A stretch of DNA of 64,000 bases from Zhongshania aliphaticivorans. Its GTDB lineage: Bacteria > Pseudomonadota > Gammaproteobacteria > Pseudomonadales > Spongiibacteraceae. Below the pieces are notes generated by a model that was not told where the DNA came from, ran no database searches, and saw nothing but the letters and a program-made list of their open reading frames with translations. Shown here piece by piece: positions 36,290 to 45,721 of the stretch; the first letter of the stretch is position 1; each line of letters starts with the position of its first letter. The DNA lies in assembly GCF_001586255.1 (NCBI RefSeq), contig NZ_CP014544.1, forward strand, positions 1,581,501-1,645,500, given 5' to 3'. Both the position numbers and the translations under genes were made by a program.

Positions 36290-37000
36290 GTGACAGAGAT
36301 TACCGTCGATCCCTCCTGGAGGCATCTGCTAGAGCGGGAGTTTGCTCAAGACTATTACCGTGAATTAATGGCCTTTTTAGAAAAGCGAAAGGCCGCGGGA
36401 GCCAAGATTTTTCCGCCGCAAGAGGCATGGTTTTCTGCTTTGGCTTCTACGCCATTGACTGATGTTAAGGTGGTTATTCTTGGTCAAGACCCTTACCACG
36501 CAGAGGGGCAGGCCCATGGTCTGTGTTTCTCGGTGCTGCCTGACGTGAAAACGCCACCGTCACTGAGAAATATTTACAAGGAGTTGCACCGTGATCTGCA
36601 TTTGCCGATACCTCACCACGGCTGCCTAAATAGCTGGGCGAGGCAGGGTGTGCTTCTGCTGAATACCGTGTTCACGGTGGAAGAGGGTAAGGCGGGGTCT
36701 CATCAGGGCCAGGGTTGGGAGCGCTTTAGTGAGGCCCTTGTATCAACTCTCAACACTGAGCGCGAAAGGCTAGTGTTTATGCTCTGGGGGGCGCAGGCGC
36801 AAAAAAAAGGTGCGGACATTGATCAAGATCGTCACTTGGTTTTATGCGCAGCTCATCCATCGCCCTTGTCGGCGCATCGAGGTTTTTTGGGCTGCGGTCA
36901 TTTCTCGCAGGCGAATGCTTATTTGACGGCAAATGGCCAGCAGCCCATAGATTGGCAGATTCCAGCGCTGCCCGAGCCAGCGTTCCAGCTTATTCCTTAG
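36290..37000 (+). CDS. ung: Uracil-DNA glycosylase
   Basis: 236 residues, family-1 enzyme that removes uracil from DNA. The water-activating loop is GQDPYHAEGQAHGLCFSV (Asp in GQDPYH), the uracil-recognition region SLRNIYKEL, and the DNA-intercalation loop HPSPLSAHRGFLGC. GTG start at 36290. Its stop lies inside the 3' end of the convergent MerR gene (11-nt overlap). Confidence 0.97.
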   Translation: MTEITVDPSWRHLLEREFAQDYYRELMAFLEKRKAAGAKIFPPQEAWFSALASTPLTDVKVVILGQDPYHAEGQAHGLCFSVLPDVKTPPSLRNIYKELHRDLHLPIPHHGCLNSWARQGVLLLNTVFTVEEGKAGSHQGQGWERFSEALVSTLNTERERLVFMLWGAQAQKKGADIDQDRHLVLCAAHPSPLSAHRGFLGCGHFSQANAYLTANGQQPIDWQIPALPEPAFQLIP

Positions 37001-37820
37001 GTAAGTCATCCATAATGGTTTCAAGGGTGTCGGCCAAAAAGCGACTAGCGGCAATTTCCATGGCGCGACCTAGTTCTGCATCAACAACCTTTTCGGCTAG
37101 CGGTCTGAGACGCCATATCAGTTCGGCAATTTTGGGCAATTCTTCCTTCGGCGGTAATTTCTGCTCGGCGTAAGGCTCCAGCACGTGTTGAGACACGAGT
37201 TTAACAAACTCATTGGCCACCTTTTGAACGTTGCCCCGCATCATGCGCAAAATGTCGAGCAACTCGTCTAATGGAATACCGGTGCCGCATAGCTCCTCGG
37301 CAACTTTGAGAGTGCTCATGCTGGATATGCGCATTTTACTGCCTGAGACACTAAATAGGCCTAGGTCATGGGCTGTTTTAATCGCTGACGGCGTGAGTTT
37401 GGTGCCAAACATCCTTACGAGCTCTGTCATGGGGAGTGTGGTCGGGGCCTCATTTGTCCACGGCGAGTTAACTGCCGTTTCTATGCCCAGTATTTCACTT
37501 AGCCCTACACCTTCTTCTAGCGCGGACAATAATTCTCGTATTGAGGACAGGGTGTAGCCGCGATCTAATAAATTGGCGATTAGCCGCAAGCGCGATAAGT
37601 GTTGGTTGTTGTATATACCCTTGCGGCCCTGTAATGCCGGCGGTGGGAGTACCCCTCGGTCTTGGTAGGCGCGGATATTACGTACGGTTGTATTGGCAGC
37701 GATAGCCAATTGTTCAACCGAATAATCGCGCTGCGCATCCGCTTCGCTGTGGTCTTCAGTTTGCCCAGTCTGAGGTAAGAGTTGGGCCATGCTCGTGATG
37801 GTGTCTTCGGGAAATTTCAT
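36990..37820 (-). CDS. MerR-family transcriptional regulator
   Basis: About 276 residues from the ATG at 37820; the frame opens further to 37928 and a later ATG exists at 37790, so the start is uncertain. The winged helix-turn-helix (about 32-104) reads YSVEQLAIAANTTVRNIRAYQDRGVLPPP, then the usual HLSRLRLIANLLDRGYTLSSIRELL. The C-terminal half is long and helical, with no cysteine cluster, so it is not a metal sensor. It is divergent from the TonB receptor gene, whose promoter carries an ATGTnACAT dyad found again before the BVMO operon. It may regulate both; see findings. Confidence 0.85.
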   Translation of the reverse strand: MKFPEDTITSMAQLLPQTGQTEDHSEADAQRDYSVEQLAIAANTTVRNIRAYQDRGVLPPPALQGRKGIYNNQHLSRLRLIANLLDRGYTLSSIRELLSALEEGVGLSEILGIETAVNSPWTNEAPTTLPMTELVRMFGTKLTPSAIKTAHDLGLFSVSGSKMRISSMSTLKVAEELCGTGIPLDELLDILRMMRGNVQKVANEFVKLVSQHVLEPYAEQKLPPKEELPKIAELIWRLRPLAEKVVDAELGRAMEIAASRFLADTLETIMDDLPKE

Positions 37821-37991
37821 TGTTGCTGGGTAGCCGTCTCGATGAAGGAAGATGGGTAGTGATGAGCCCTGAAGGCGTTGATTCTCACTAAAGCTAGCAT
37901 CAATTGCAATTAGTGGGGTGAGTGACATTAAAAATTTGTCTGCTCAGCCAATGTTGCCAAATTGTAATAATGGCACTGTGAATAAAATAGC

Positions 37992-38026
37992 TTGACTCAG
38001 TTGTATTCTCAAATTAATGTTACATT
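37992..38026 (+). promoter_or_regulatory. TonB-receptor promoter with ATGTnACAT dyad
   Basis: TTGACT (37992-37997), 17-bp spacer, TAATGT (38015-38020). The palindrome AATGTTACATT lies at 38016-38026, covering the -10. The same arrangement recurs at 41392-41426. Binding protein unknown; the MerR-type regulator is the nearest candidate. Confidence 0.6.
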
Positions 38027-38082: not shown

Positions 38083-40557
38083 ATGGGTAAGCGTTCCATT
38101 TTACATGGATCTTGGATGGCTACGTTAGTTGCTTTGTCGCCGTTGGCAAATGCAGCAGTGTTAGAGGAAGTCATTGTGACCGCTCAGCACCGTAGTCAAA
38201 GTCTACAGGATGTTCCGGTGTCGGTCAGTGCAATAAGTGGCGATAAAATGATGGAAGCCGGCATTAACCGAATGGAAGATTTACAGGCTTACGTTCCCAA
38301 TTTAACGGTCACCGAAAGTGGTATCAGTACTGATATTTATATTCGCGGTATTGGCACGGGTATGAATCAGGGCTTTGAACAGTCAGTGGGCATGTATGTT
38401 GATGGTATTTACTATGGTAGAGCGCAATTAGCACGTGCTCCCTTTTTGGATTTGGCCCGAGTTGAAGTACTACGTGGCCCCCAGAATATTCTGCATGGTA
38501 AAAACAGTATTGCAGGTGCAGTAAACCTGGTTACCGCCGACGCGAGTGAGTATTTCGAAGGCCTACTGTCGACACTCTACGAACCAAATTTTGATGAAAA
38601 AGTGTATGACTTAATGCTTTCTGGGCCATTGACGGACACCGTTGGTGTGCGCTTTTCTGCTCGTTTGCGCGAGTATGGCGGGTTTGTCGAGGACTTGTTT
38701 CAGAAAATAGATGGCCCGCAGTATGATCAGCAAACCTTTCGCCTAAAAATTAATTGGCAGGCTACAGATGCCACCAAAGTTGCACTGAAAGCTGAACTTG
38801 GCAGCTTTGATTCTCTGGGGCGCCAAGCCGAAATTATTAATGATGAACCCTCAACGTCAGATGTTTTCCTGTTTACCGGTAAGACAGAAGCTGAAATTTT
38901 GGATAACACCCAATTTCCGGGTGTGGTTAATGTCGATACAGATGATTCGGTCCGCAATAATTACCAGGATTATAAGTCTGCCACTAACGGTAACTACAGT
39001 AATAACGACACAACAAATTTAACTTTGAATGTGACAAATATGACCGAAAGTGGGCATGAGTTCACCTCTATAAGCGGTTATTTGCACTATGAATACAATG
39101 ATCTTTGTGACTGCGATGCAACGCCGGCAGAATTGTTTAAGCTCGAATTAGGTGAAGATTATTCGCAGTTTAGCCAAGAATTGCGCTGGGTGTCGCCATC
39201 GGGCGAAGCGGTTGAATACATCGGTGGAATTTATCTGCAGCGCAATGAACTCGATTTCCGCGATAAGCTGATTCAAGATTCCGACGTGGTTGTTCAGTTG
39301 CTTAACGCGGCTGATTATCTTGAAGCGGGTGGACGGGGTGATGTTGACCCTAATCCCCTAGGCGGATCACCTGCCGAAATTCTGGGGATTGGCGATGCCG
39401 GTAATGCGGTTGAGAATATTACCGCGCCTCGGACATTTTTAAGTACATCGAATATATTTTCTGCATTCTTACAGGCCACTTTCCATTTTGGTGATGATTG
39501 GCGTATGACCTTGGGTGGTCGCGAAACGATAGAGAAAAAGACCGGTAGTCGTAAGCTAGACTTGGCGGATCTCGATGGGAATTCGCTGCCTATCGGCGAG
39601 GTAGATACCGTTTCAGGTATTACATTTTCAGCTGAGCGCCATGACCTTCGAGGCAAGCGCACGGAAAAGTCATTCTCACCTTTGTTAAATTTCCAGTGGG
39701 ATTACTCTGCCGATGGTATGGCTTATTTCACTGCAACTAAAGGTGTGAAAGCGGGCGGCTTTGATGCGCGCTCCAATATGTCACCAAGTGCCGAGCCCAC
39801 TCCCCGCAACCCGGGTGCGGTAGTTGCTAATCAAAGTGTGTTAATCGGTACTTTTGAATATGAAGAAGAAGAGGCGAGTAGCTTAGAAATTGGCTTAAAA
39901 ACGGGGTTGCTAGACGGTGCCGCAGAGCTAAACTTGGCGCTATTTTATACTCTGTATGAAGACCTACAGATCAGTATTTTTGATGGCACCTTAGGTTTTA
40001 ATGTCGGCAATGCTAAAGAGGCGGTGACCAAGGGCATTGAAATGGATGGTCGTTGGCAGCTGACAGATTATTTTAGTCTTGGTGGCGCGCTGGCGGTAAT
40101 GGATTTTGAGTTTACCGATTTTGAAAATGGTCAGTGTCGTCAGGATCAAGCGCCGACATCGAGTAATGGTGTGAACTGTGACTACACCGGCATGAGCAAT
40201 CAATACGTTGCCGATTGGTCAGGTACATTTTTGATGGGCTATGTTAGGCCGATTAGTGAGACTTTAGGTATTGGCTTGGGCCTTGATTTTGTCTTCACTG
40301 ATAAATACAACCCATCCTCAAACCTCGATCCGCGAGTTGAACAAAATGGTTTTGTTAAAGTCAACGGCCGCATTGGCATTGGCGCAATTGATAAACATTG
40401 GGAGCTGGCGCTCGTGGGTAAAAACCTGACTGACGAAGTGATTATTGTTTACGCTGCCGACACGCCGTTGTCTAAAACGATTTTTGGCGCCACCAGCCAT
40501 ACCGGCTTTTTAGAGCCACCTCGTTCAATCGCCATGCAATTTACTTATCGCATGTGA
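38083..40557 (+). CDS. TonB-dependent outer-membrane receptor
   Basis: 824 residues. Signal peptide about 1-23 (LANA/AVLEE), then TonB-box-like residues (EEVIVTAQ), plug domain with IRGIGTG and VDGIYYGRAQL and the RGPQNILHGKNSIAGAVN motif, then a 22-strand-type barrel ending in QFTYRM. It lacks an STN domain, so it is not a signal-transducing type. The sequence resembles receptors for lipophilic or polycyclic compounds more than siderophore receptors, but that is only inference. No TonB/ExbBD genes nearby. Confidence 0.93.
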   Translation: MGKRSILHGSWMATLVALSPLANAAVLEEVIVTAQHRSQSLQDVPVSVSAISGDKMMEAGINRMEDLQAYVPNLTVTESGISTDIYIRGIGTGMNQGFEQSVGMYVDGIYYGRAQLARAPFLDLARVEVLRGPQNILHGKNSIAGAVNLVTADASEYFEGLLSTLYEPNFDEKVYDLMLSGPLTDTVGVRFSARLREYGGFVEDLFQKIDGPQYDQQTFRLKINWQATDATKVALKAELGSFDSLGRQAEIINDEPSTSDVFLFTGKTEAEILDNTQFPGVVNVDTDDSVRNNYQDYKSATNGNYSNNDTTNLTLNVTNMTESGHEFTSISGYLHYEYNDLCDCDATPAELFKLELGEDYSQFSQELRWVSPSGEAVEYIGGIYLQRNELDFRDKLIQDSDVVVQLLNAADYLEAGGRGDVDPNPLGGSPAEILGIGDAGNAVENITAPRTFLSTSNIFSAFLQATFHFGDDWRMTLGGRETIEKKTGSRKLDLADLDGNSLPIGEVDTVSGITFSAERHDLRGKRTEKSFSPLLNFQWDYSADGMAYFTATKGVKAGGFDARSNMSPSAEPTPRNPGAVVANQSVLIGTFEYEEEEASSLEIGLKTGLLDGAAELNLALFYTLYEDLQISIFDGTLGFNVGNAKEAVTKGIEMDGRWQLTDYFSLGGALAVMDFEFTDFENGQCRQDQAPTSSNGVNCDYTGMSNQYVADWSGTFLMGYVRPISETLGIGLGLDFVFTDKYNPSSNLDPRVEQNGFVKVNGRIGIGAIDKHWELALVGKNLTDEVIIVYAADTPLSKTIFGATSHTGFLEPPRSIAMQFTYRM

Positions 40558-40564
40558 TTCATAT

Positions 40565-40601
40565 TGAGGACGATGCTTATGCCTAGCACCGTCCTCATTT
40601 T
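40565..40601 (+). terminator. Rho-independent terminator after TonB receptor gene
   Basis: An 8-bp stem TGAGGACG (40565-40572) with CGTCCTCA (40590-40597), extended by four more pairs beyond one mismatch, followed by TTTT. It sits 8 nt after the receptor stop and partly limits read-through to the START gene. Confidence 0.8.
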
Positions 40602-40626
40602 ATCAACGGAACAGGAGTTGGCTTTA

Positions 40627-41289
40627 ATGTTAAAAATAAAACAATTTGTGCTACTCGCGGGTTTATTTTTTTCTGGCTTTAGTGCACAAGCCGTTGACTG
40701 GGAGTTGGCCAAAGACGCTGAGGGGGTAAAAGTATTTACTGGCGCAGTTGCTGGCTCGGAATACAAAGCCTTTCGGGGTGAGATTGTTGTTGATGCTGAG
40801 CTTAATCAGCTGATGGCGGTGTTGGACGATACCGCTAATTTTTCGAACTGGATGTACAACTGCAAATCACCAAAATTACTGTATAAGGCGAGTTTATTAG
40901 ACCGCTATCAGTACCTACAAAATGACTTCCCTTGGCCGGCGAAGGATCGAGAGATGATTTTGCGCAATGAAATTAGCCAAGATCCTGCAAGCCGAGTGAC
41001 CACGGTAAAATTGAGCTCAGTTGCGCTTGAAAAACTACCCGCTCCAGCTCGGCAGGCTATGCCCAAAACGGGGGCAGCGGTTCGTATGGAGGCGGTGCAG
41101 GGCTTCTTTGAACTTAGCCCAGTAAGCGATACGCAAACCAAGGTGATATTTCAGCTGCATTTAGATCCTGGTGGTGGTTTGCCCGCAGGCTTGGTGAACG
41201 CGCTCATAGTCGATAATCCCTTTGAGACCTTGAAGGCACTGGCTAAGCAAGCCGTGAGGCCTGAATACGCCAATTTTAATCCTTTCTGA
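40627..41289 (+). CDS. START-domain protein, secreted
   Basis: 220 residues. A signal peptide ends near SAQA/VDW. The rest is a START/helix-grip lipid-binding domain with the typical start WELAKDAEGVKVFTG, the FPWPAKDREMILR segment, and a C-terminal helix (LVNALIVDNPFETLKALAKQ). The ATG at 40627 has AGGAG 9 nt upstream; the frame opens to 40564 but that part lies in the preceding terminator. It may bind or carry a lipid or sterol in the periplasm. It lies between the TonB receptor and the BVMO operon, fitting uptake of a hydrophobic compound. Confidence 0.87.
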   Translation: MLKIKQFVLLAGLFFSGFSAQAVDWELAKDAEGVKVFTGAVAGSEYKAFRGEIVVDAELNQLMAVLDDTANFSNWMYNCKSPKLLYKASLLDRYQYLQNDFPWPAKDREMILRNEISQDPASRVTTVKLSSVALEKLPAPARQAMPKTGAAVRMEAVQGFFELSPVSDTQTKVIFQLHLDPGGGLPAGLVNALIVDNPFETLKALAKQAVRPEYANFNPF

Positions 41290-41391: not shown

Positions 41392-41441
41392 TTGACATTG
41401 AATGATGTCGCATTTAATGTGACATCATTCAATGTTACATA
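41392..41441 (+). promoter_or_regulatory. BVMO-operon promoter with tandem dyads
   Basis: Consensus TTGACA (41392-41397), 17-bp spacer, TAATGT (41415-41420). Two dyad copies AATGTGACATC (41416-41426) and AATGTTACATA (41431-41441) lie 15 bp apart, centre to centre. The whole segment forms a larger inverted repeat: arms 41393-41409 and 41421-41437 match at 16 of 17 positions. Same -35/-10 spacing and same dyad position as the TonB promoter. Confidence 0.65.
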
Positions 41442-41468: not shown

Positions 41469-42335
41469 ATGGAAAGCCAGAGCAAAAAGATAGTGCAACC
41501 AGTTCGCCGTAATCTTGAGTTTCACCTGCCCAAAGAGCGTATCGGTGATTGGCATGCGGGTGGTGCTCACATCACTCATTTTTTTAATGCTTTGTCGATA
41601 TTTTTCCCTGACGGTGAACGCTTTTTCATTGATAGCGTTCGTCATTACCGCGACCGAATTAAGGACCCCGCTTTAAAGGAGTCAGTACGTGGCTTTATTG
41701 GTCAGGAGGCGATGCACGGGCGCGAACACGAAGAATACAATCAGGCCCTGGTAGATAAAGGCATGCCATCTGATCGCTATGGTCGTATTGTCATTCGCTT
41801 GCTGGGCTTTTTCACTCGCTTTTCGCCGAAGGTTTCTCAGCTAGCAGGAACAATAGCCTTAGAACACTTGACTGCCATTCTTGCCAATATGGTATTGAGC
41901 GATCCTCGTATTCTGCACAATGCGGAGCCGCGGTTTGCTGCGTTATGGAAGTGGCATGCAATGGAAGAAACTGAACATAAAGCTGTTGCCTATGATGTCT
42001 ATCAGCAGGTCGTCGGTGGGGGATTAATGGGCTATTTCCATCGTTGCTGGGCTTTGTTAATGGCTACATCTATATTTTGGGTGTTGGTTATTCCATTTCA
42101 TATCGGTTTGGTACGCAAGGAAGGCCAGCTATGGAATGTGCGCGGCTGGATTAAAGTGACTAACTTTTTATGGGGGGCGCCGGGCGTGCTACGTCGCACG
42201 ATTCCGGATTGGTTAGATTATTTTAAGCCTGGCTTTCACCCCTGGGATCACAACAATGCACATTATTTAGACGGGCTGGATGCCTTGGTCGCGGAGGTAG
42301 ATAACTATGGCGCGCCCACGGGTGCGGTTGCATGA
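41469..42335 (+). CDS. PF10118 'metal-dependent hydrolase' with diiron-like ligand pattern
   Basis: 288 residues, matching the family annotated as predicted metal-dependent hydrolase. The visible pattern is that of a ferritin-like diiron helix bundle: E50 in a first helix, E80xxH83 in a second, E132 in a third, E167xxH170 in a fourth. That set (E...ExxH...E...ExxH) is what diiron oxygenases and ferritin-like proteins use. It also has a C-terminal hydrophobic helix (about 193-213). The family label does not prove hydrolysis; an oxygenase role is plausible here because the next genes encode a monooxygenase, an esterase-like protein and a dehydrogenase. Overlaps the next gene by 4 nt. Confidence 0.8.
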   Translation: MESQSKKIVQPVRRNLEFHLPKERIGDWHAGGAHITHFFNALSIFFPDGERFFIDSVRHYRDRIKDPALKESVRGFIGQEAMHGREHEEYNQALVDKGMPSDRYGRIVIRLLGFFTRFSPKVSQLAGTIALEHLTAILANMVLSDPRILHNAEPRFAALWKWHAMEETEHKAVAYDVYQQVVGGGLMGYFHRCWALLMATSIFWVLVIPFHIGLVRKEGQLWNVRGWIKVTNFLWGAPGVLRRTIPDWLDYFKPGFHPWDHNNAHYLDGLDALVAEVDNYGAPTGAVA

Positions 42336-43321
42336 GACCGCACCACGCTGAGTTGGTCGGAAATGACGCGGCGCTTGCCGCGTTCAAGGATATGCGCGCG
42401 CAATTCCAGCTAACCCCTCTGGCCAGTGTTGATCCACAAACATTAAAGACCTGGCGTCCAAAGAAGTTTTTGTGGCAGCGCCTGCTGCCACTTTTGGGGC
42501 GCCAGGCAGGCCTTAAGTCTAAGCTGAGTCAGGTCGACGGGCATCGCTTGCATTATTGGGCGGGGGGATGTGCAGCAGGTCCTGTCGTAGTCCTACTTCA
42601 CGGGTTTGGCTCAAGCAAAGAAAATTGGGCTTATCTCACTGCCAAGTTAAGTAAGACGTATCGTTTATTGGTGCCTGATATTCCGGGTTTTGGGCAGAGC
42701 GATTTTATTTTTGATGCAGATTATCGCCTTGCTGCTCAAGCAGATCGACTGGCGCAGTGGCTAAAGGATCTCGGTGTCGACCGCGCCCATTTTGTCGGCA
42801 GCTCGATGGGCGGTGCAATTGCCGCACAAATCGCGGCTCGGCACCCAGGCTTAATGAATAAACTTTGTTTGATGAATGCTGCTGGTGTGCCTGGTAAGCA
42901 CCTAACGCAACTGGAAAGCGGTCTCGCTGCAGGGGTTAATTATTTAGCGCCAAGCCAGGCCAAAGATGCATGGCAGGTGTTTGCGATTGCCCTGCATCCT
43001 CAGCGCCGTTGGCTAGGACTCGCGTTTGCTTTTCTTATGGGTTCGGCAATGAGTCATCGTAAGGTTCTCAATGACTTTTTGTTTGGGAGCTTAGTTGAAT
43101 CCCTGGCGGATACATTTATACAGCTACCGTCAATTGGTGCGCCGACACTCGTGTTGTGGGGGGACTCAGACCAAGTGCTTGATGTCAGCTGCGCAGATGG
43201 TTTTTGCGAGCGCATCCCCAATGCTAAAGCCATGATTTTACCCGCTGTGGGGCATCTACCAATGCTGGAGGTGCCGGGATTGACTGCGCGCCTACTACAC
43301 GATTTTTGGTGTGCGAATTAG
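42332..43321 (+). CDS. Alpha/beta hydrolase (esterase/lipase-like)
   Basis: 329 residues. An N-terminal extension of about 70 residues precedes the fold. The oxyanion-hole motif is LLHGFGSS, the nucleophile elbow is GSSMGG (Ser158), the acid is D278 or D280 in LWGDSDQ, and the histidine is H308 in VGHLPM. Predicted carboxylester hydrolysis. It sits between the diiron-like protein and the BVMO, consistent with hydrolysing the ester made by the latter. Confidence 0.9.
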   Translation: MRPHHAELVGNDAALAAFKDMRAQFQLTPLASVDPQTLKTWRPKKFLWQRLLPLLGRQAGLKSKLSQVDGHRLHYWAGGCAAGPVVVLLHGFGSSKENWAYLTAKLSKTYRLLVPDIPGFGQSDFIFDADYRLAAQADRLAQWLKDLGVDRAHFVGSSMGGAIAAQIAARHPGLMNKLCLMNAAGVPGKHLTQLESGLAAGVNYLAPSQAKDAWQVFAIALHPQRRWLGLAFAFLMGSAMSHRKVLNDFLFGSLVESLADTFIQLPSIGAPTLVLWGDSDQVLDVSCADGFCERIPNAKAMILPAVGHLPMLEVPGLTARLLHDFWCAN

Positions 43322-43330
43322 AGAGTAAGA

Positions 43331-44872
43331 ATGCATATGTCTGATAATAAAAAGGAAGTAAAACCTGCGGTTGAGGTAGCGATTATTGGTGCTGGTTTCG
43401 GCGGTATAGGTTTAGCTATTCGCCTGCAGCAGCAGGGCGTTCAAGATTTTGTGATCTACGAGCAGGCGGCGGATGTTGGCGGCGTTTGGCGAGACAATAT
43501 TTATCCCGGCGCGGCGTGTGATGTGCCTTCACACCTGTATTCATTTTCATTTGAGGCAAATCCAGATTGGGGGCGCAGCTATGGGCCTCAAGAGGAGATT
43601 CACCGCTATTTGCAGCACTGTGCCAAAAAATACCAATTAAATAGCCGCATTCAATTTAATACGACGGTGAGTGGTCTCGCATTCTGCGAGAAGAATGGTC
43701 TATGGACGATCAATTTTGCCGATGGCACGCAGAGCACTGCGCGCGCGGTGGTCTTGGCAATTGGCGCCTTAAATATTCCTCAATACCCTAAGATTGATGG
43801 CCTAGAAAAGTTTGGCGGTAAAATTATGCACACCGCTAAATGGGATCAAGACTATTCACTTACAAATAAGCGTGTCGCGGTAATTGGTACGGGCGCGAGT
43901 GCGATTCAGGTTGTGCCAGCGATTCAGCCAGAGGTGGCGTCCTTAGCCTTATTTCAGCGCACGCCGCCGTGGGTAATGCCAAAGTTTGACCGTCGCCAAA
44001 GTACTGTTCGTCAGGCTCGACTTCGGCGTTGGCCCTTTCTGCAGAGGCTTATTCGAAACCTCCAATATTTGATCGCCGAAAGCGTGGTGCCTGCATTTAT
44101 GTGGGACAGTGTCTTAACCCGATTTGGTGAGGCGATGGGGCGGCGCTATCTTAAAAAAGTGGTCAGCGATCCCTTGTTGAGAAAACAGCTTACTCCGCAA
44201 TATGCAATGGGATGTAAGCGAGTGTTGCTATCAGACAATTACTACCCAGCGTTAACCAAGAGTAATGTCAGCTTATTAAGTGCAGGGATTAGCCATATTG
44301 ATAAACACGCGATTTATAGCGCCGATGGTCAGCGCATAGAGGTGGATGCGGTGGTGTTGGCCACGGGGTTTAAAGTACCTGTATCGGGGGCGCCAATGCC
44401 CGTGCGGGGCTTGGCAGGGCGCGACTTAAATAATGATTGGGCTATCGGCTCTGAGGCTTACAAAGGGATGACAGTCTCTGGCTACCCCAATTTACTTTAC
44501 ATCATGGGCCCGAATACGGGGCCGGGTAATACGTCAGTGATTTTTTATATCGAGTCGCAGATTCATTATATTTTACAGTATTTAAGCGCCTTGCGAGCTT
44601 CGCCAAATGAATACATAAATGTAAAGCCGGAGGTTCAGCGTACATTTAACGAGGATGTGCAGCGCCGGTTTAAAGGAACCACGTGGACCTCGGGCTGCAA
44701 TAGTTGGTATTTAACGGCTGACGGCAAGAATACCACCTTGTGGCCGAGTTTTTCGTGGCTATACCGATTGCGCACGCGGCGTTTTAATAATGCAGAATAT
44801 GAATTTGTTGAAGTCGGAGCGTCACGTGAAGATGACGCCGAGCTTGGCGTTGAACTGGCTGCACAAAGCTAA
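43331..44872 (+). CDS. Flavin monooxygenase, Baeyer-Villiger type
   Basis: 513 residues. First Rossmann motif GAGFGGIG (20-27) binds FAD; second GTGASA (186-191) binds NADPH. Between them the Baeyer-Villiger fingerprint FxGxxxHxxxW is matched by F161...H167...W171. Type-I BVMOs convert ketones to esters or lactones with O2 and NADPH. The ATG at 43331 is followed by an in-frame ATG at 43337; either may be used. It resembles MymA/EthA-type monooxygenases. Ketone substrate unknown. Confidence 0.92.
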   Translation: MHMSDNKKEVKPAVEVAIIGAGFGGIGLAIRLQQQGVQDFVIYEQAADVGGVWRDNIYPGAACDVPSHLYSFSFEANPDWGRSYGPQEEIHRYLQHCAKKYQLNSRIQFNTTVSGLAFCEKNGLWTINFADGTQSTARAVVLAIGALNIPQYPKIDGLEKFGGKIMHTAKWDQDYSLTNKRVAVIGTGASAIQVVPAIQPEVASLALFQRTPPWVMPKFDRRQSTVRQARLRRWPFLQRLIRNLQYLIAESVVPAFMWDSVLTRFGEAMGRRYLKKVVSDPLLRKQLTPQYAMGCKRVLLSDNYYPALTKSNVSLLSAGISHIDKHAIYSADGQRIEVDAVVLATGFKVPVSGAPMPVRGLAGRDLNNDWAIGSEAYKGMTVSGYPNLLYIMGPNTGPGNTSVIFYIESQIHYILQYLSALRASPNEYINVKPEVQRTFNEDVQRRFKGTTWTSGCNSWYLTADGKNTTLWPSFSWLYRLRTRRFNNAEYEFVEVGASREDDAELGVELAAQS

Positions 44873-44881
44873 GGGGATGTG

Positions 44882-45721
44882 GTGAAAAATTTTAAAAATA
44901 AGGTTATTGCAGTTACTGGCGCAGCATCAGGTATCGGTCGTGCCTTGGTCGAGGGTTTGCTCGCCAGTGGTGCGCGGGTTGCTGCATCTGATGTCGACAA
45001 TACTAATTTGCAGCGTCTTAGAGAACTTGCTGCTACCGAGCTGCTGTTACTGTCTAGCGTCGACGTCAGTGATCAGGCGGCAATGCAAGCATGGGCGAAT
45101 GAGGTAAAAACTCATTTTGGTGAGGTCGATGGCGTAATCAATAACGCCGGTGTGGCGCTCAGCTGCCATGCGAGTGATCAACCCCGGGAGCAAATGGAGT
45201 GGCTGTTTAATATTAATTACTGGGGCGTGATTAACGGTGTGGAAGCCTTTCTGCCGGAATTAATGCGCCGCCCAGAGGCTTGCATTGTTAATATCTCGTC
45301 GTTGTTTGGCTTGCTGTCCGTACCTTCGCAGTCGGCCTATAATGCGGCGAAATTTGCCGTGAGGGGCTACTCCGAGTCGCTGAGGCAAGATCTGCGAGAG
45401 ACCTCAATAAAAGTGGTAACGGTTCACCCAGGCGGTATTCAGACCAATATTGCCAATAATGGTCGCCATTTGCATTCGATTACCGGCAATGCCGCTGATG
45501 TCGATAAAACGGCGGCACTGTTTAATAGCATTGCGGCAACGAGCCCCAGGCAGGCCGCCAAGAAAATAATGTTGGGGATGCGGAAATCAAAGCCACGGGT
45601 TTTGATCGGCAGCGACGCGTGGTTTTTAGACAAAATTCAGCGCCTGTTTCCCGCTTGGTATGACCGCTTGCTTGTGCCGATGATGACAGTCGGCACGCGC
45701 ATGGCTTTAAAGCGGGTTTGA
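44882..45721 (+). CDS. SDR-family oxidoreductase
   Basis: About 279 residues. Cofactor motif TGAASGIG, Asp after the second strand (ASDVDN), NNAG, catalytic Ser in NISSLFG, Tyr and Lys in YNAAK. The C-terminal extension resembles SDRs linked to BVMOs (SadH-type). GTG at 44882 is preferred (AAGGGGA 5 nt upstream) over GTG at 44879. It may oxidise an alcohol to the ketone used by the monooxygenase. Last gene of the operon; it converges on ygfZ with a 3-nt gap. Confidence 0.9.
   Translation: MKNFKNKVIAVTGAASGIGRALVEGLLASGARVAASDVDNTNLQRLRELAATELLLLSSVDVSDQAAMQAWANEVKTHFGEVDGVINNAGVALSCHASDQPREQMEWLFNINYWGVINGVEAFLPELMRRPEACIVNISSLFGLLSVPSQSAYNAAKFAVRGYSESLRQDLRETSIKVVTVHPGGIQTNIANNGRHLHSITGNAADVDKTAALFNSIAATSPRQAAKKIMLGMRKSKPRVLIGSDAWFLDKIQRLFPAWYDRLLVPMMTVGTRMALKRV

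Follow-up and report, generated by a model that had tools for sequence, protein, structure and literature searches.

The standard name of the PF10118 family, 'Predicted metal-dependent hydrolase' (Metal_hydrol), is probably wrong and hides a possible oxygenase family. One member is encoded in the window, the whole 64,000-nucleotide stretch of Zhongshania aliphaticivorans DNA that was analysed. This protein is probably not a hydrolase but a diiron oxygenase of the ferritin-like kind, whose AurF/CylC-type site comprises three histidines and four glutamates, and it may initiate the degradation of oily molecules. That it is a diiron-type protein appears almost certain, and that it is an O2-activating oxygenase is very probable, with iron loading and O2 use presumed. 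Sequence, structural model and synteny support the diiron-type site, the relation to AurF, the predicted fold, the reductase linkage in some relatives and the content of the operon. An earlier note on this DNA had proposed that the usual name may mislead and that an O2-using enzyme would fit better. The conserved ligands, the AurF match, the fold neighbours, the reductase linkage and a neighbouring Baeyer-Villiger-type monooxygenase (BVMO) all favour that proposal and point to putative O2 use. The features concerned are these:

36990 to 37928, minus strand: MerR-family regulator, divergent, upstream of the operon
38083 to 40557, plus strand: TonB-dependent receptor, upstream of the operon
40564 to 41289, plus strand: START/polyketide-cyclase-like protein (241 aa, START E 1.3e-5), co-directional and upstream of the operon promoter
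41395 to 41435, no strand assigned: palindrome with AATGTnACAT repeats at the operon promoter (20-nt arms, 95% complementary)
41469 to 42335, plus strand: PF10118 protein, proposed AurF-like diiron oxygenase (288 aa; PF10118 match, alignments, AlphaFold model, AurF profile)
42332 to 43321, plus strand: alpha/beta hydrolase, proposed esterase (329 aa, GxSxG at residue 156)
43331 to 44872, plus strand: type I Baeyer-Villiger-like flavin monooxygenase (513 aa, FGGKIMHTAKWD at residue 161, two GxGxx(G/A) motifs)
44879 to 45721, plus strand: short-chain dehydrogenase (SDR), proposed secondary alcohol dehydrogenase (280 aa; TGAASGIG, YNAAK)

The reading frame of the PF10118 protein lies where it had been placed before, with an ATG at 41469, a stop ending at 42335 and a product of 288 aa that matches the family model over its full length (302 bits, E 4.9e-90, against a gathering score of 33.2). 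The gene heads a tight run of four: the start of the alpha/beta hydrolase gene overlaps its stop by 4 nt, the monooxygenase gene begins 9 nt beyond the hydrolase, and the SDR gene follows 6 nt past the BVMO gene. It had been described as preceding a monooxygenase gene, and one is indeed nearby at 43331, but the immediate next gene is that of the hydrolase (42332). Type I BVMOs are recognized by the fingerprint FxGxxxHxxxW(P/D). The product of gene 43331 carries this fingerprint as FGGKIMHTAKWD, together with two Rossmann motifs, GAGFGG and GTGASA, and its closest solved relatives in the PDB are phenylacetone monooxygenase (1.3e-68) and steroid monooxygenase.

The half-site AATGTnACAT of the promoter palindrome recurs upstream of the TonB receptor gene of the window, at 38014. 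Among 13 loci checked, it was found upstream of the PF10118 gene or the TonB gene in six (L005 to L010, in L006 at the TonB gene only), all of which carry a MerR gene; it was absent from L013, L015 and L019, all three of which have a MerR homologue, from L022 and from the three paralogue loci. When one mismatch is allowed, the whole window holds seven copies against 4.1 expected, which is no enrichment over chance, and the case for the element therefore rests on its position and recurrence.

The residues conserved within the family follow the diiron pattern. An initial alignment of 23 sequences (A1) left 30 columns invariant, and a broader one (A2) joined the window protein to 54 homologues that are 21-85% identical to it, with a median pairwise identity of 35% and a minimum of 18%. 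Ten columns, and no others, are invariant across these 55 sequences: P47, E50, E80, H83, H87, E132, H163, E166, E167 and H170. The nine residues other than proline are again invariant, and P47 is not, in a second alignment of 20 rows, in which the window protein was joined by 19 copies taken from plasmids, of which 10 belong to Actinomycetota. Q79 is a glutamine in 50/55 and a glutamate in 5/55 members of A2, and is kept throughout the 20-row alignment; H133 is present in 53/55 members of A2. Given 29 glutamates and histidines among 251 core residues, the chance that at least nine of ten invariant columns would be E or H is about 1e-8, a figure that is illustrative only because active-site residues are conserved anyway. 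The resulting motif reads E50 ... Q79-E80xxH83 ... E132 ... H163xxE166-E167xxH170. Carboxylate and histidine residues in the order E, ExxH, E, ExxH, placed on four helices in succession as in ferritin-like diiron oxygenases and oxidases, are conserved in 55/55 and 20/20 sequences. We propose E50, E80, H83, E132, H163, E167 and H170 as candidate ligands and Q79 and E166 as candidate second-sphere residues.

The six residues named in the earlier note (E50, E80, H83, E132, E167 and H170) are all at the positions given there, and each is invariant in every PF10118 sequence of both alignments. H163, E166, H87 and Q79 had been left out of that set; the observation is confirmed as right and was somewhat understated. 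The same six had been assigned to predicted helices, and they fall on four helices of an AlphaFold model of the protein built on A1 (pLDDT 90.3, pTM 0.87). These helices span residues 33-59 (E50), 67-96 (E80, H83, H87), 121-144 (E132) and 154-182 (H163, E166, E167, H170). Residues 186-217 were considered as a possible conserved membrane helix; the hydropathy maximum is 2.06 in the window protein, but only 27 of the 55 sequences reach 1.6.

The best PDB matches of the model in Foldseek are R2lox, the ribonucleotide reductase subunit RNR R2 and CmlI, with AurF at rank 21; the probability is 1.00, E values are 0.037-0.15 and TM scores about 0.45-0.5, and none reaches E <= 0.001. With VIA-align, CmlI gave Z 13.2 (235 residues, 4.9 A) and AurF Z 12.9, and the best 50 matches listed are all RNR R2, R2lox, AurF/CmlI or methane monooxygenase chains. 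Since helical bundles can reach a Z of about 13 by chance, the fold alone is no proof; statistically weak on their own, the fold matches of the model appear to agree with the independent sequence evidence.

The window protein itself has no NCBIfam match, finds no Pfam family besides PF10118 even with E values as high as 10 allowed, and does not reach the gathering score of the AurF family PF11583 (29.6 bits). Searches of PDB chains, with phmmer to an E value of 10 and with hmmsearch (profile) to an E value of 1, yielded no credible sequence relative, the sole phmmer row being a designed helix bundle at E 0.37, and the same searches detected no sequence relation to solved members of R2lox or RNR R2. 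A hydrolase identity was considered and rejected, as no credible hydrolase relative of the protein emerged from the Pfam, NCBIfam or PDB searches. When all 55 members were scanned against 24,736 Pfam models, AurF was the best family outside PF10118 (14/55, best 3.1e-6), followed by Rubrerythrin (5/55, best 2.1e-3) and a further family with three matches (best 0.07). In whole genomes, the Pfam AurF profile matched PF10118 genes in four places at 19 to 25.8 bits, all below the family cut-off, and one of these is a PF10118 paralogue of the window genome itself (at 593262, 7.9e-6). A small profile built from four clear AurF-family proteins reached a best E of 7e-5 among PF10118 proteins and gave the window protein 5.2 bits (E 0.031). 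In L008, L009 and L010, it placed E80/H83, E132 and H163/E167/H170 in register, with E50 outside the local alignments; in five other matches among those listed, it covered the last motif alone. A profile-profile comparison (hhalign) of PF10118 with a broader, mixed AurF alignment (A3) found nothing, a probable reason being that A3 consists mainly of sequences weakly related to AurF.

AurF and CmlI (PF11583), ferritin-like diiron N-oxygenases, share with PF10118 the order E...(D/Q)ExxH...E...HxxxExxH, including the third histidine. The fourth-helix pattern HxxxExxH (H163, E167 and H170) is present in 55/55 PF10118 sequences, in register with the four-protein AurF profile. AurF residues D135, H139, E196, D226 and H230 correspond to Q79, H83, E132, E166 and H170, respectively, and the extra AurF histidine that corresponds to H163 is, we take it, number 223; for E101, E136 and E227 of AurF we likewise assume the numbering. 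Several differences separate the groups: Q79 and E166 stand in place of D135 and D226, H133 is found in 53/55 PF10118 members, the position of H87, invariant in PF10118, is occupied by S, F, F and C in the four AurF-family proteins, and the neighbourhoods of PF10118 genes are catabolic. The window protein should be kept out of PF11583, but its mode of action is probably that of an AurF-type diiron oxygenase.

The dimetal halogenases CylC and NocO offer a second comparison. According to an excerpt of PMC12101540, CylC homologues carry the motifs QExxH and HxxDExxH with a third histidine. QExxH (50/55) and the third histidine are common to PF10118, but the fourth-helix motif is HxxEExxH in 55/55 members, so that, compared by published motifs, the family differs from CylC/NocO; no halogenation context was seen at PF10118 loci. 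The same excerpt describes the 3-histidine mode as confined for the most part to N-oxygenases, two histidines being the number found in most diiron hydroxylases. Together with the AurF-like site and the CylC-like QExxH motif, this favours a diiron oxygenase with other AurF/CylC-like chemistry (N-oxygenation, halogenation, desaturation or oxidative C-C cleavage), in which the BVMO, SDR and hydrolase would serve other steps. Such chemistry nevertheless seems improbable in view of the catabolic neighbours (acyl-CoA ligases, acyl-CoA dehydrogenases, thiolases and TonB receptors) at the loci closely examined.

PF10118 occurs in 29/200 sampled genomes of the phylum of the window, with up to nine matches in a single genome. 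In 26 related loci, linkage to the PF10118 gene was seen for homologues of the MerR regulator in 16, of the flavin monooxygenase (FMO) in 11, of the SDR in 13 and of the hydrolase in 12, nine loci of each count representing one Paraburkholderia/Burkholderia lineage, in which the hydrolase match is weak. In L007 and L022 the SDR that was counted, and in L011 the hydrolase, is 2 to 5 kb distant. The BVMO fingerprint is present in 15 of 16 clustered FMOs. In Zhongshania antarctica (L005, 6846-7162), the interval between the PF10118 and FMO genes holds no match to the operon hydrolase. In the window genome, TonB receptors belonging to a single cluster accompany all four PF10118 genes, either adjoining them or one gene away, and the paralogue at L151 is neighboured by genes for an acyl-CoA ligase, an FMO, an SDR, a TonB receptor, a thiolase and a FadJ-like protein. 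The cluster around another paralogue (L133, 864485) encodes an acyl-CoA dehydrogenase, a thiolase, an HMG-CoA-synthase-like protein bearing a ChsH2-type zinc ribbon, and a P450, and looks like a locus for steroid or isoprenoid breakdown.

Reductase linkage is found in Actinomycetota. In 5 of 10 loci from this phylum, all on plasmids, a PDR/VanB reductase is encoded directly downstream of the PF10118 gene: in Dietzia, Rhodococcus NBC_00297, R. fascians (4-nt overlap), Embleya (37-nt gap) and R. koreensis, where the match spans two reading frames. Three of these five loci supplied the queries that found the last two (Embleya and R. koreensis). The two reductases scanned contain FAD, NAD and [2Fe-2S] domains. 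This is the type of electron donor that an oxygenase needs, which supports the oxygenase reading. No such reductase was found in M. chubuense and M. aubagnense, where SDR, FMO and hydrolase genes lie nearby, and no linked PDR/VanB reductase in two Tsukamurella loci and M. intracellulare. Among the 96 non-Actinomycetota loci of the 106 searched (E <= 1e-6), there was one weak match, at L137, and none convincing in Pseudomonadota; the PF10118 operon of the window has no linked reductase. The match at L137 (11280-11663, window genome) is a 128-aa frame that resembles the flavin part of MmoC/BenC reductases and is separated from the fourth PF10118 paralogue by about 2.4 kb; its NCBIfam match (6e-31) covers the middle of the model only and stays below the cut-off, and the frame is apparently a fragment. 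Two other candidates were set aside: the L162_5 cluster, often beside PF10118 genes, was considered as a reductase, but its representative is an AraC-family regulator, and the 751-aa frame of L128, a possible reductase fusion, is, judged by eye, an apparent GC-rich upstream read-through.

The PDR/VanB reductase and the BVMO/SDR linkage also suit substrate oxidation better than a ferritin-like metal protein without oxygenase turnover, such as a rubrerythrin-like peroxidase, an iron-handling protein or an R2lox-like ligand-binding oxidase. A protein of this kind would be in keeping with Rubrerythrin as the second outside Pfam match (5/55), with R2lox and RNR R2 at the top of the fold lists, and with the Fur regulator and katG encoded about 5 kb downstream of the PF10118 gene in Rhodococcus L173, but it appears very unlikely. 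R2lox and RNR R2 share the fold rank and the order E, ExxH, E, ExxH with PF10118; the ligand list of R2lox, as given in an excerpt, has two histidines, in contrast to the three-histidine PF10118 site. GkR2loxI, a relative by its ferritin-like fold, is reported, in an excerpt of PMC10867098, as an alkane hydroxylase on the basis of crude lysates, in which some of the activity remained when two ligands were mutated.

To our knowledge, there is no ferritin-like hydrolase. That PF10118 proteins are true metal-dependent hydrolases, as the curated Pfam name has it and as would suit their place, in an excerpt of a lanthipeptide study, within a candidate 'protease' group kept after correlation and co-expression with precursors (PMC8960859), is extremely improbable, given that the conserved residue set is the diiron one, that hydrolysis offers no obvious role for a linked PDR/VanB reductase, and that the Pfam scan of 55 members gave no credible hydrolase family among 25 of the 27 families listed.

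For the diiron oxygenase, a mechanism can be outlined in which we infer iron loading, O2 use, C-H hydroxylation, the order of the steps and the substrate. Electrons from NADH would reach the two irons, in some Actinomycetota via the linked PDR/VanB [2Fe-2S] reductase and in the window genome via an unlinked donor. The reduced diiron site would then take up O2 and hydroxylate a hydrophobic substrate by inserting one oxygen at a C-H bond; the TonB receptor may import this substrate. The SDR may convert the resulting secondary alcohol to a ketone, the BVMO would insert oxygen to turn the ketone into an ester, and the alpha/beta hydrolase could cleave the ester to an acid and an alcohol. The assignment of the PF10118 enzyme to the first step of this pathway is tentative, as is the putative substrate. 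In subterminal alkane oxidation, which involves a hydroxylase, an alcohol dehydrogenase, a BVMO and an esterase, the order is alcohol, ketone, ester, and acid plus alcohol, as set out in an excerpt of PMC6304351; of these four types of enzyme, the operon encodes all but the hydroxylase, for which it offers a candidate. In the same excerpt, on T. oleivorans grown on n-C28, a BVMO and an esterase rose, a TonB receptor was above the non-hydrocarbon control, and a specific subterminal monooxygenase 'was not identified'. As an oxygenase, PF10118 would be a testable candidate for the step that this proteomic study, in the excerpt, left unassigned. A more speculative and rather doubtful extension is that the three-histidine dimetal enzymes, besides the N-oxygenases and the halogenases, have a third branch in PF10118; it would carry H87 as a fourth invariant histidine, carry out NADH-driven C-H hydroxylation in lipid or alkane catabolism and supply the subterminal hydroxylase of BVMO/esterase pathways.

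An oxygenase role for PF10118 would change the reconstruction of pathways for hydrocarbon, lipid and steroid breakdown, and a three-histidine site in catabolic C-H chemistry would, if true, widen known diiron reactivity. Among the matches listed from the open-licence PMC literature, judged by title and the start of the abstract, none presents PF10118 as an oxygenase; the identifier PF10118 itself turned up there in a single paper, the lanthipeptide study, and no open-licence PMC paper was found under the names COG3687, IPR016516, PIRSF007580, UCP07580, PTHR39456 or Metal_hydrol.

Several PF10118 loci show further arrangements. On a Mycolicibacterium plasmid (L180, 10651-11574), SDR and FMO genes in the vicinity of the PF10118 gene flank a gene for a protein annotated as 'ferritin-like', which has a weak AurF match (3.3e-4), and a 'hypothetical protein' occupies the matching place on another (L170). 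Some Acinetobacter copies lie among housekeeping or unrelated genes, and one adjoins genes for a ferredoxin, a P450 and an FAD-oxidoreductase. On two Acinetobacter plasmids (L177 and L179), the PF10118 gene is one gene away from the MSMEG_0567-0572 'nitrogen starvation' cluster, and in L179 it is annotated as two pieces around an IS3 transposase.
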